Shown here: positions 40,432 through 45,937 of the stretch, one piece after another
Numbering within the stretch: position 1 is the stretch's first letter
How the letters are laid out: the number at the start of each line of letters is the position of its first letter
NCBI GenBank assembly: GCA_031292385.1
Contig: JARLHE010000060.1
Coordinates: 1-64,000 of the forward strand
Reading direction: 5' to 3'
Length of the DNA stretch: 64,000 nt
Source: Oligoflexia bacterium
GTDB taxonomy: Bacteria; Bdellovibrionota; UBA1018
Notes under the pieces: model-generated
The model's database searches: none
What the model was told of the DNA's origin: nothing
What the model saw: the letters and a program-made list of their open reading frames with translations, nothing else
Position numbers and translations under genes: made by a program

Positions 40432-43400
40432 TTACGGACTCGAAAGCGCGGATGGCGAAAAATTCCTGGAAGAGAGTCCCCGGTTCAATTTCAAATCGAC
40501 CAAGTCGAGCTGGGTCGCCCGGTGGTTCTGCGCATTTGTAACCAATACTTGTTGAGCGCGCCAGACTCCGTTTGTAAATTTTTTGTAATGGGTCATTTCG
40601 GTCGTCTTCAAAAGAGCTCCGGCGCGATCGTAATCTTCGATTTTCGAAACCAATTTCGTATCGAGATCGACCCAGGTGATGATCCGGCTGTACGCGGAGT
40701 CCGGATTATTGAGCTTGCTTTCGATTACGGCGTTTTTGCCTTTTCCGTCCGGCGCGGTTTCCGTGCGGAGGATTTGGCTGGTGATCTGATCCGGGTTGGA
40801 GTTCCCCATGTCCTCGTAGCTCAATTCGGAGTCGAGGAAGTTGGAGCTTTTCTTGCCGCTCAGGATGCGACGGGTTTGTTTCGAGGAAGGCAGATAGAGC
40901 CATTGGTCGGTCTGGCCGCCGTGGCTGACGCTCAAAAGCCCCATTCCACGAAGATCGGCGGGGCTTTGCAGGCGAACCAGCACGGATTGCCCGTCCCTTT
41001 CTTCCAGGCGGGAGATCTCGAGGTCGCGTTCCTTTTTCGAGCCGTTGGCCTCGATAATGGTCATCTTGATTCGTGCCTGCTCATCGCTGGTGTGCAGGTT
41101 TTTGGCGACATCCTGCAGGATGGCGTCCGCTGGCGCCGAGCCCGGAGTGTTCACGCCGGCGAGGCTGCTCGAAGCGGATCCGAGGGTTGCGAGTACGATG
41201 ATGAGGACGATCAGGCTTTTATACACGAGTGACTCCTTTGTGGGAGCCCGGGCCGGGATCCGAAGCGGGATGCGTGCCACGAGCAGGTTCGGGAATAACC
41301 CAAGCAGGGCCGGAAGAAAAATCAAATCGCCGAAAAGCCCGACTCCGATCGACCACAGCATATAAGCGCCGAACGTACGATTCAGCGCGAAATAGGACGA
41401 GAGGAATACCGCGAAGCCGCCGAAAAGCGCGAGCGACGAGAACAGGCACGGGTTGCCTTCCTGGTACCAGGCTTTGCGGATGCAGCTCATCGGGCTCGAT
41501 GTTTTTTGGCGCAGCGAATTCAGCCGACTCATCAAATAGACGGTATTGTTATAAGCTACGCCGAGCGCGATCGAAAACACCACCGCGATCGTCGGCTTGA
41601 TCGGCGTTTTCAGCAGGGCCATCGTCGTGATGAGCGCCAGCGGGGCCAGGAGGTTCGGAACCGCGGCGATCAGCGCAAGGCGGATCGAGCGGAAGACCAC
41701 CACCATGAGGAGCGAAATCCAAATCAGCGACTGCCAAAGGCCGGTGATGAGCTGCTGGGAGAGCTCAGCGTTCAGGATATGCACATTGGAGGCAAGGCCG
41801 CCCGAGAGAACGTCGGCTCCCGGAAACGCCGTTTTCGCGTCGTCTTCGATCGAACGCACGGCGGCATTCATTTGATCGGCCGGAACATCCCTCAGTCTCA
41901 GTTCCAGTCGGGTGCTGTTTCCGTCTGCGCTCAGGAATTGCAAAAGCGGGTTCGATTCGGAGAACGAGAGCAGGAAAAAGGTCTCGGCCAGGGATTTGCG
42001 GGTGGCGTCTTTCAATGACGGTTTCCCGGCGGAGGCGAAATCAGGAATGCCGATTGCGCTGCCGACGATGGGGTTGGTTCGCCATTTCAGCAGAAGCTCG
42101 TGCAGTTTTTCGACACGGGCGGGATCGTTCCAGGGGCTCGGCTCGCCATGTTCGCGCACCATTAGGCTCAGCGGAATCATGCCGCCGAGTTCCTGATCGA
42201 TCAGGCTGGTCGAGGCTTTCAGTGAACCGACGGATGGAACGTCGTCGAAAAGCCGCACGGACCAATTCAAACGGACGCCGTGCAGCCCGATCGCGATTAC
42301 CGTGATCACGACCGCGGCGAAAAAGGCTTGGCGAAAGCGAATCACGCCGAGCGCCCATTTCGCGCTCGCGGAGGTCCATTTTCTCGCTCTGGGGATTGGC
42401 ATCAGATACATCAGGGGAGGCAACGCCAGGCTGACGGAGAGCCATCCGAACATGATGCCGCCCCCGACGCTCCAGGCGAATTGCTTGATCAGCGGAACTT
42501 GGCTCGTGGCCAAGGTCGCGAATCCGATGGTGGTCGTCAGCGCGGTCAGGAAGTTCGGGAGAAAAAGGCCTCCGTAGATTTCGCGCAGAATTTGGATACG
42601 ATCGGGCTCGACTCCTTTTGCTTTCTCGGCTTCCCAGCGGTTGCCGAAGTTCAGCAGGGTGTGGGAGCCGATCGCGAGCGCCATGATGCTCGCAAGCACC
42701 GGTACCGTGGTTGACAGGACGGAAAACGGCAAGCCCGCCAGCGCCATCCAGGAGAGTGCCCCCAGGTTCGAGAGCGCGCCGAGGAAAAGGCAGGAGAGCA
42801 CGGTCGAGAATCCGCGGAAATAGGCAAGCAGGGTAATGATCGCGGCAAGAAGTCCCAAGACCAGAAAGCGCAGCAACTCTTTGCGGATGAGCACGGTCAT
42901 GTCGGACTGGAGAGTCAGGACTCCTCCGACCAAGGGTTTCACTTCGCCTGAATCCGGAAAGCGTCGCGCTAATTTCAGGCGCAACGAATCGATCATCTTG
43001 AGCATGCCGTCGGCGGACAGGCTTTCCGGGGTGCCGACGATCATGACGGTCCGCTGGTCCGCGGAAATCAAGCCGGGTTGAAGCAAGGAATCGCTCGCGA
43101 CCCGGGGCCGCCATTGATCGGGCGGGGTGAGGGCGAGCAAATTGCCGACCTCGATGCCTTTAGGAGAGGAAACCGCCGTTTCGATGTTGCCGAGACTGAT
43201 CGCGGTACGGACTCCTTCGGTGGCGCTGGTCTCGGCGGTCGCGGCCTTGAGCTGCTGGATGCGCTCGGAGGTCAGCCATGTGCCGGGCGCGTTCGGTTTC
43301 AGTTGCAGCGTGATGAGCGTCGGCTCTTCCGTGGAAAGGCTGAACTCGTGTTTGATCTCATCGTCGTTTTTAAAGATCGGATGATTGAGCGGAAGGAATT

Positions 43401-43581
43401 GGCGCATGGAATAGCGCGTGCTGAGGTTACGCAGGCTGTAACCCTGGGCGGCGCCTATCGCGATGGAGAGAGCGAGTAGGCCAAAGGATGCCAGTTTTGC
43501 TGTTTTTGGTTTAATTTTTATTCCCCGAAGCCGCATGACGCGTATAGACATCATTGATTTGAGGAAAAAAGGGAAGCTCAA
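40432..43581 (-). CDS. MMPL/RND-superfamily permease joined in frame to a C-terminal LolA-like (outer-membrane lipoprotein-sorting) domain
   Basis: Two MMPL-type halves; C-term QSVLVRLQSPADLRGMGLLSV..DQWLYLPSSKQTRRI..SFLDSELSYEDM pattern of LolA-like proteins; internal AAAGGAG-N6-GTG at 41239..41224. Confidence 0.8.
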   Translation of the reverse strand: MSFPFFLKSMMSIRVMRLRGIKIKPKTAKLASFGLLALSIAIGAAQGYSLRNLSTRYSMRQFLPLNHPIFKNDDEIKHEFSLSTEEPTLITLQLKPNAPGTWLTSERIQQLKAATAETSATEGVRTAISLGNIETAVSSPKGIEVGNLLALTPPDQWRPRVASDSLLQPGLISADQRTVMIVGTPESLSADGMLKMIDSLRLKLARRFPDSGEVKPLVGGVLTLQSDMTVLIRKELLRFLVLGLLAAIITLLAYFRGFSTVLSCLFLGALSNLGALSWMALAGLPFSVLSTTVPVLASIMALAIGSHTLLNFGNRWEAEKAKGVEPDRIQILREIYGGLFLPNFLTALTTTIGFATLATSQVPLIKQFAWSVGGGIMFGWLSVSLALPPLMYLMPIPRARKWTSASAKWALGVIRFRQAFFAAVVITVIAIGLHGVRLNWSVRLFDDVPSVGSLKASTSLIDQELGGMIPLSLMVREHGEPSPWNDPARVEKLHELLLKWRTNPIVGSAIGIPDFASAGKPSLKDATRKSLAETFFLLSFSESNPLLQFLSADGNSTRLELRLRDVPADQMNAAVRSIEDDAKTAFPGADVLSGGLASNVHILNAELSQQLITGLWQSLIWISLLMVVVFRSIRLALIAAVPNLLAPLALITTMALLKTPIKPTIAVVFSIALGVAYNNTVYLMSRLNSLRQKTSSPMSCIRKAWYQEGNPCLFSSLALFGGFAVFLSSYFALNRTFGAYMLWSIGVGLFGDLIFLPALLGLFPNLLVARIPLRIPARAPTKESLVYKSLIVLIIVLATLGSASSSLAGVNTPGSAPADAILQDVAKNLHTSDEQARIKMTIIEANGSKKERDLEISRLEERDGQSVLVRLQSPADLRGMGLLSVSHGGQTDQWLYLPSSKQTRRILSGKKSSNFLDSELSYEDMGNSNPDQITSQILRTETAPDGKGKNAVIESKLNNPDSAYSRIITWVDLDTKLVSKIEDYDRAGALLKTTEMTHYKKFTNGVWRAQQVLVTNAQNHRATQLDLVDLKLNRGLSSRNFSPSALSSP

Positions 43582-44698: not shown

Positions 44699-45178
44699 AT
44701 GAAAAAGTTTGTTGTGTTGGGTATCTTTGCGCTGATGGCCAGCGCGGTGGTCGCGAACGCGGCCGAGGGGGGTCGTCAGGACGATGCCGCGCGCCTCTTT
44801 CGGTTTGACTTCAGCTGTGATTTTCCCGCGGGACCTCCCGGCAGCCACTCCTGTAAAGCTTATTCGACGGTCTTCGCTTACGTCGATACGCACGACTGGA
44901 TGAACACGATGCAGAGTACACGTGATCCATTGAATAAATTCACCGTGATCTGTGACGACCGGGTGGTTTATTCGGACAGCGCCATTTTGGATCCGGGGCA
45001 TCGCCGTTTCGTCGCGATCACCGGGCTCTCCGGCTTGCCTGCGCTCTTGGTTGAGCGCAAGGATCATCAAATCATCAGCGATAAAGACATGATTTACGAT
45101 GCTGACTTGGATTTGGACGGCGGATTTCGCCCTATTCCGGGCAAGTGCGACGTGGAAACGAGACCGGTCGGACTGTAA
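44699..45178 (+). CDS. Small exported hypothetical protein
   Basis: AAGGAG RBS; signal peptide MKKFVVLGIFALMASAVVANAA. Confidence 0.65.
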   Translation: MKKFVVLGIFALMASAVVANAAEGGRQDDAARLFRFDFSCDFPAGPPGSHSCKAYSTVFAYVDTHDWMNTMQSTRDPLNKFTVICDDRVVYSDSAILDPGHRRFVAITGLSGLPALLVERKDHQIISDKDMIYDADLDLDGGFRPIPGKCDVETRPVGL

Positions 45179-45212: not shown

Positions 45213-45257
45213 GCGTGACTCAGGAGCGCGCCCGCGCTCCTGAGTCACGCTTTTTTT
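45213..45257 (+). terminator. Strong intrinsic terminator
   Basis: GCGTGACTCAGGAGCG / CGCTCCTGAGTCACGC 16-bp perfect stem followed by T7. Confidence 0.92.
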
Positions 45258-45310: not shown

Positions 45311-45326
45311 TGGCACTTTCGTTGCT
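45311..45326 (+). promoter_or_regulatory. Sigma54 (RpoN) -24/-12 promoter
   Basis: TGGCACTTTCGTTGCT; GG-N10-GC spacing; about 85 nt upstream of ATG 45410. Confidence 0.65.
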
Positions 45327-45409
45327 TTCCTAAGCAGGCATTGCGGCGAGCGCCCTACAGAAGCTGAGCTCGCTGTCGTAACACCACTTCGTCATATGGA
45401 GGACGATCT

Positions 45410-45853
45410 ATGAAACTCGTAAGAAATGCACTCTCGCTCACAGCATTGCTCGGTCTGATGTCATCGCTCGCGTTCGCGGATTTTCTCCCGCCGGTCAACA
45501 GCATCCCTGTTAATCCCGTGATCCCGACTTCGTCCGCTGGCCAGAAGGCAGGACAGAAGGCCACGACTTCGGCCGGTCAGAAGGCCGGACAAAAAGCTGG
45601 CCAGAAGGCTACCGTCTCCGCCGGCCAGAAAGCCGGTCAGAAGGCTGGCCAGAAGGCGGGACAGTCCGCGGGTCAGAAGGCTAGCCAAAAGGCAGGGCAA
45701 GCCGCCGGTCAGAAGGCTGGTCAAAAGGCTACTGTTTCCGCGGGCCAGAAAGCCGGCCAAAAGGCTAGCGTTTCTGCGGGTCAAAAGGCGGGTCAGAAGG
45801 CCGTTGTTTCGGCTGGTCAGAAAGCCGGCCAGAAATCTGGCGTGGTTTATTAA
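45410..45853 (+). CDS. Secreted cationic (AGQK)n repeat protein
   Basis: Signal peptide MKLVRNALSLTALLGLMSSLAFA; GGAGG-like RBS; AGQK tetrapeptides in S(AGQK)2-3AxV modules. Confidence 0.85.
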   Translation: MKLVRNALSLTALLGLMSSLAFADFLPPVNSIPVNPVIPTSSAGQKAGQKATTSAGQKAGQKAGQKATVSAGQKAGQKAGQKAGQSAGQKASQKAGQAAGQKAGQKATVSAGQKAGQKASVSAGQKAGQKAVVSAGQKAGQKSGVVY

Positions 45854-45897
45854 CTGACTCGTCCTCTGCTGGCTGCGAAGAGGGCAGAAGGACTTTT

Positions 45898-45937
45898 CAG
45901 GGAGGCACGATCGAAAGAGTGCCTCCCTGTTTTTTTT
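45898..45937 (+). terminator. Strong intrinsic terminator
   Basis: CAGGGAGGCAC / GTGCCTCCCTG 11-bp stem followed by T8. Confidence 0.92.

Follow-up and report, generated by a model that had tools for sequence, protein, structure and literature searches.

What does a bacterium gain by exporting a chain built largely from a single tetrapeptide, Ala-Gly-Gln-Lys, and how is the production of such a chain controlled? The question is raised by one gene in the window, the whole 64,000-nucleotide stretch of an Oligoflexia bacterium genome that was analysed. The gene and its immediate surroundings comprise the following features.

44699..45178, + strand: upstream neighbour, open reading frame for an exported 159-aa protein without Pfam or NCBIfam family
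45213..45257, + strand: intrinsic terminator of the upstream gene, 17-bp perfect stem plus T7 (-37.7 kcal/mol, z -7.6)
45311..45326, + strand: predicted sigma54 (-24/-12) promoter TGGCACTTTCGTTGCT, GG at 45312-45313 and GC at 45324-45325, from sequence and homologs
45398..45402, + strand: Shine-Dalgarno sequence GGAGG, 7 nt ahead of the ATG
45410..45853, + strand: coding sequence of the exported AGQK repeat protein, 147 aa plus stop, from reading frame, ribosome-binding site and repeat analysis
45410..45478, + strand: signal peptide MKLVRNALSLTALLGLMSSLAFA, next residue D, from sequence and the similar leaders of relatives
45479..45535, + strand: Pro/Val/Asn linker DFLPPVNSIPVNPVIPTSS of 19 residues, from sequence
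45536..45847, + strand: 26 in-register tetrads, 17 of them exactly AGQK, from tetrad analysis (tandem repeats of period 12, 36, 48 and 72)
45898..45937, + strand: intrinsic terminator of the AGQK gene, 11-bp stem and T8 (-22.8 kcal/mol, z -3.6)

The reading frame at 45410-45853 (+) is a real gene. Between tetrads, pS amounts to 0.77 and pN to 0.30; in the Ala column the values are 0.72 and 0.04, which indicates selection on the protein and not on the DNA. The signal peptide was assigned by inspection and displays type-I (Sec) features, namely an n-region, a hydrophobic core and A-x-A before the mature N-terminus, with cleavage motif AFA/D and no lipobox Cys. From residue 43 onwards the tetrad register is perfect. 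Tetrads 1-13 read AGQK AGQK ATTS AGQK AGQK AGQK ATVS AGQK AGQK AGQK AGQS AGQK ASQK and tetrads 14-26 AGQA AGQK AGQK ATVS AGQK AGQK ASVS AGQK AGQK AVVS AGQK AGQK SGVV, Y being the last residue. Runs of AGQK are interrupted by tetrads of the type A-T/S/V-T/V-S, and the C-terminus is SGVV-Y. A preliminary description of this DNA had the protein consist of "almost only A,G,Q,K". The repeat register bears this out; the composition does so in part, as A+G+Q+K make up about 70% of the 124-aa mature protein next to 10% Ser and 8% Val. The protein has a charge of +18 and no acidic residues beyond residue 26. Its gene is present once in the 3.39-Mb, 62-contig assembly.

Both flanking terminators fold, in agreement with the earlier proposal of a single-gene unit, and recognisable terminators lie downstream of about half of the complete genes of the family described below. 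The upstream neighbour was considered as a conserved partner of the window copy and rejected as an orphan gene: homologs were found in none of 34 other family genomes, and only its own genome gives a match. Further upstream, at 40432-43581 (-), a single open reading frame combines an MMPL-type permease with a LolA-like lipoprotein carrier domain.

Homologs of the window gene form a family, of which 24 genes were assembled; they come from 16 genomes in 12 genera, all belonging to the window's own family of uncultured Bdellovibrionota. Several genes are cut at contig ends and, because repeat arrays break assemblies, these counts are lower bounds. In protein searches, 18 of the 55 genomes of the same order contained relatives (E <= 0.001), nearly all from the same family; a class-wide search added none beyond it, and when 84,980 species genomes were scanned, the same MAGs came up together with unrelated low-complexity matches, with no homologous exported gene elsewhere. 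The cross-genome search for AGQK-repeat proteins suggested in the preliminary description has thus been run, and no well-characterised family was matched. Its statement that the protein falls into no known family also holds, given that a Pfam search, LEA models included, gave no family at E <= 1 and NCBIfam matches stayed far below cut-off. A literature search on AGQK repeats and on Bdellovibrio repeat proteins found nothing relevant, and the Gln-Lys repeat family appears to be previously undescribed in the literature searched.

Several other matches were set aside. Similarities to PDB sequences (an ARID protein, OCM3, P230 and circumsporozoite proteins) reflect low complexity, and those outside the family (YidC tails, an FtsY-like linker, other short or off-frame stretches) are unrelated. 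When the unbiased DNA pattern QKxxQKxxQK was applied to 369 genomes of the phylum, A-rich genomes matched it so readily that hits outside the family carry no information. The YidC proteins of unrelated MAGs (L030:3303-5408, L037:3255-5297) carry AGQK-rich basic tails, in which the unit apparently arose independently.

Family members resemble each other in their leaders (MK-x-F-...-SLxxGAxA...AxA), consistent with the export proposed earlier, and they differ in the repeat. Its unit drifts from AGQK to AGQKAGQKAGQ (11 residues), AGQKAGQVATQK, PGQK, RPGQKPGQFPGQKDDLTN, AEQK, SASKGEQK, GEQAGKAEQKPAQK, GKAGQKLGE, APAQKAGQKAGEVKTS and GEQK. Among 23 readable members the dipeptide QK occurs far above shuffled expectation and KQ not at all; the 24th (G047_C113) is frame-broken beside an N and was left out of composition counts. 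Nearly every member is rich in Gly. Net charge per residue spans 0.00 to +0.19 (mostly +0.10 to +0.19), and charge is therefore not a conserved property. In two members the AGQK tail is joined to a segment that is rich in Gly, Pro, Phe and Leu and resembles elastin or silk, and in one to VPTVVP repeats.

Control of the window gene by sigma54, as previously suggested, is substantially strengthened by the comparison and remains a prediction. The element follows TGGCAC-N5-TTGCW with exact GG-N10-GC spacing, and exact TGGCAYNNNNNTTGCW occurs 21 times in the genome as against twice for a reversed control pattern. TGGCAY-N5-TTGCW is located upstream of 22 of the 24 family genes, 59-207 nt from the ATG (20 of 22 if the two genes found by the promoter pattern alone, G032_C29 and G028, are excluded). 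In five relatives, nine of 26 exact sites directly precede family genes. The genome encodes RpoN (PF04552, E 1.2e-64) and has 24 matches to Sigma54_activat (PF00158), of which about 17 are full-length. No clear candidate emerged for an upstream activator site, the best shared 7-mers being present in 7 of 19 upstream regions versus a shuffle maximum of 6. Many exact sites in the genome are followed, after 10-100 nt, by genes for small exported proteins and lipoproteins. In the regulatory sense the gene is consequently not the isolated cassette it had been taken for. It has been argued that the exterior of bacteria is under sigma54 control (PMC3162934).

Behind exact -24/-12 sites in this genome and its relatives (L059-L062, L072, L077, L085, L091, L096, L097) stands a set of small exported proteins and lipoproteins, which includes a recurring 70-79-aa family beginning MKKRLLL as well as one with DVQ(R/K)AP(Q/E)NI(K/R)IQC motifs. 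In 13 of 22 family leaders (for example L105, L119 and L120) a CGAAC(C) motif, often GACGAACC, is situated 16-25 nt past the -12 GC, and in a 14th at 30 nt; it is missing from the window copy and largely missing at the other sigma54-like sites examined.

What the preliminary description had missed, besides the family itself, is that about half of its genes lie beside trehalose genes. A divergent otsA gene (trehalose-6-phosphate synthase) is found within about 4 kb of 11 of the 24 genes, often together with a GH15 trehalase-like gene, and a 12th family gene has GH15 and HAD genes on either side, its contig stopping short of the place expected for otsA. Pfam matches of the neighbours are GT20, and GH15 with TREH_N, a trehalase-like N-terminal domain. 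These 12 trehalose-type loci span nine genera. By chance only about 0.1 otsA neighbours would be expected, a rough estimate from about 1.5 otsA genes per 3.3 Mb and a 10-kb flank per gene; the linkage events are not independent, because the loci may descend from one ancestor.

The window copy has no otsA nearby. Its genome contains one otsA, on another contig, with the gene order of the linked loci, namely otsA, GH15, small exported protein, HAD. The small exported protein of this locus (L193:9778-10137, G000:C1), which takes the place corresponding to that of the AGQK gene and ends AGQKGKPILDDRAFYSA..., has a single AGQKG, no array, a DDRAFY motif and no Pfam family; in three other genomes, DDRAFY-ending proteins are encoded just upstream of an AGQK gene. 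None of the loci examined has an exact sigma54 site directed towards otsA, and co-regulation of AGQK and trehalose genes is therefore not established. Several AGQK-linked OtsA proteins (L124, L025, L130) are, as judged by eye, extended at the N-terminus by two apparent membrane segments with a loop between them; this part resembles a membrane sensor module fused to trehalose-6-phosphate synthase.

At the sequence level, the comparison shows the family, its putative export signal, the conservation of the predicted promoter and the trehalose linkage in half of the family. We favour the idea, with a probability of about 0.42, that the product is an exported disordered envelope protectant of the hydrophilin/LEA type, transcribed by RpoN and serving in water stress alongside trehalose. 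RpoN together with one enhancer-binding activator would transcribe the gene, and the product would be exported by Sec with removal of the signal peptide. The repeat region would remain unfolded in the periplasm or on the cell surface and may act there as a water-retaining, space-filling disordered chain, perhaps helical when dried. It would be deployed under osmotic or drying stress, with trehalose supplied from an otsA locus that is linked to the gene or inherited along with it. What we infer in this proposal is the disorder, the location, the triggering by stress, the protection itself and a shared role of the solitary window copy.

Variable repeat length and unit, together with the non-helical PGQK members, favour disorder over a single fold. 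AlphaFold2, run on the single sequence without alignment, modelled one 102-residue helix with a pTM of 0.25; one long helix is also what such models give for chains that turn helical on drying. Hydrophilins contain more than about 6% Gly and have a mean hydrophilicity above 1. Gly accounts for 17% of the window copy; its hydrophilicity is +0.66 in the mature part and +0.89 in the repeat region, below that threshold, so it is not classed as a hydrophilin but only as working like one. Of the 23 readable family members, 14 exceed both values. Hydrophilins of the ordinary kind reside mostly in the cytoplasm and are not known to have an invariant dipeptide. The fixed Gln-Lys pair is left unexplained by the protectant reading, and synteny with trehalose genes can be inherited without shared function. 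The hydrophilin criterion is given qualitatively in PMC4190154. Synergism of a disordered protectant with trehalose is documented for the hydrophilin Hsp12 (PMC6054528) and for CAHS (PMC9526748), and hydrophilins have been implicated in the tolerance of bacteria to drying (Green et al. 2022, as cited in PMC13119426).

Because a generic protectant does not account for the invariance of Gln-Lys, the view of the protein as an extracellular matrix or coat polymer stays alive, unlikely as we think it is. The protein would then form a surface gel, fibre or adhesive in which Gln-Lys makes inter-chain contacts or isopeptide cross-links. No other feature of the family is as constant as this dipeptide: charge, flanking residue and period all drift. 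The elastin- or silk-like fusions and the VPTVVP fusion favour a material role, and sigma54 has been linked to exopolysaccharide and surface functions (PMC3162934). By contrast, a matrix polymer does not predict linkage to trehalose genes, and no dedicated outer-membrane secretion gene was identified adjoining the window gene. The transglutaminase domain Transglut_core scores above cut-off in 17 of 35 family genomes without tracking the AGQK genes and has no match in the window's own genome (G000), which weakens cross-linking by transglutaminase. Enzyme-made cross-links for the Gln-Lys cross-linked polymer proposed in the preliminary description are accordingly not supported.

The same applies to its suggestion of polyanion binding. 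A secreted Lys-rich chain that binds DNA, LPS or acidic polysaccharide would suit the charge of the window protein and of most relatives, as well as the basic YidC tails. Yet two members with the same promoter and leader (AEQK and GEQAGKAEQK types) have a net charge of zero and others are near neutral, which weakens polyanion binding as a conserved property; moreover, Gln is conserved as much as Lys, and a polycation needs no Gln. This role is improbable in our judgement. It would also be a long shot that Gln-Lys is a chemical motif kept in a sigma54-switched exported polymer whose chains are joined or specifically bound via Gln and Lys, so that a protective gel surrounds the cell and works together with trehalose; in the bacterial envelope, such a polymer would correspond to the gels of CAHS or to cross-linked cornified proteins.

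We consider it very unlikely that the protein is a nitrogen store or a precursor of peptides linked to export, which would be synthesised under RpoN/NtrC-type control and cleaved afterwards. Gln and Lys are rich in nitrogen, and nitrogen genes are the classical sigma54 targets; against this, the Lys-Pro bonds of PGQKPGQK members resist trypsin-like cleavage, neither a consistent protease site nor a linked protease was seen, and similar sites elsewhere precede genes for assorted exported proteins. A spurious or decaying frame without function, as low complexity and a position outside named families might suggest, is hardly credible for a sequence with constrained amino acids and free third positions, whose signal peptide, ribosome-binding site and sigma54 promoter are conserved across 12 genera and which has recognisable terminators in about half of the complete genes.

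With this work, an exported repeat family is newly defined. Its marks are the unvarying Gln-Lys pair, together with a regulatory element and a metabolic neighbourhood that are both conserved, and its hosts are uncultured predator-related bacteria that are relatives of Bdellovibrio. Should the protectant reading prove true, it would connect trehalose-based tolerance of water stress with sigma54 and with a disordered exported protein, and the series AGQK, PGQK, AEQK and GEQK would be a natural comparison of the properties that matter in disordered protectants.

Among known systems, involucrin-like transglutaminase substrates resemble the AGQK family in being exported or surface-layer chains in which Gln and Lys recur; they differ in that there is no homology and that no Transglut_core enzyme was found in the window's genome. 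Group 3 LEA proteins, with their 11-mer repeat, likewise have tandem repeats rich in Ala, Lys, Gln and Gly, and some AGQK members have the 11-residue unit AGQKAGQKAGQ. The predicted long helix without a fold is also what is seen for chains that are helical when dry. Unlike LEA group 3, the AGQK protein has no LEA Pfam match at E <= 1, most members have few or no acidic residues, and PGQK is non-helical. Hydrophilins, such as those of Acinetobacter baumannii (Green et al. 2022) and Hsp12 and Stf2 of yeast, are similarly small, Gly-rich, hydrophilic and very likely disordered, and Hsp12 is known to work in partnership with trehalose (PMC6054528). The AGQK family is set apart by its signal peptide, the strict QK repeat and predicted sigma54 control, and the window copy lies below the hydrophilicity threshold. 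Finally, the sigma54 regulons of the bacterial exterior described by Francke et al. 2011 (PMC3162934) have -24/-12 promoters before envelope and exterior genes, as is the case here, whereas the putative targets in the present lineage, on which the papers found are silent, are a lineage-specific set of small exported low-complexity proteins.
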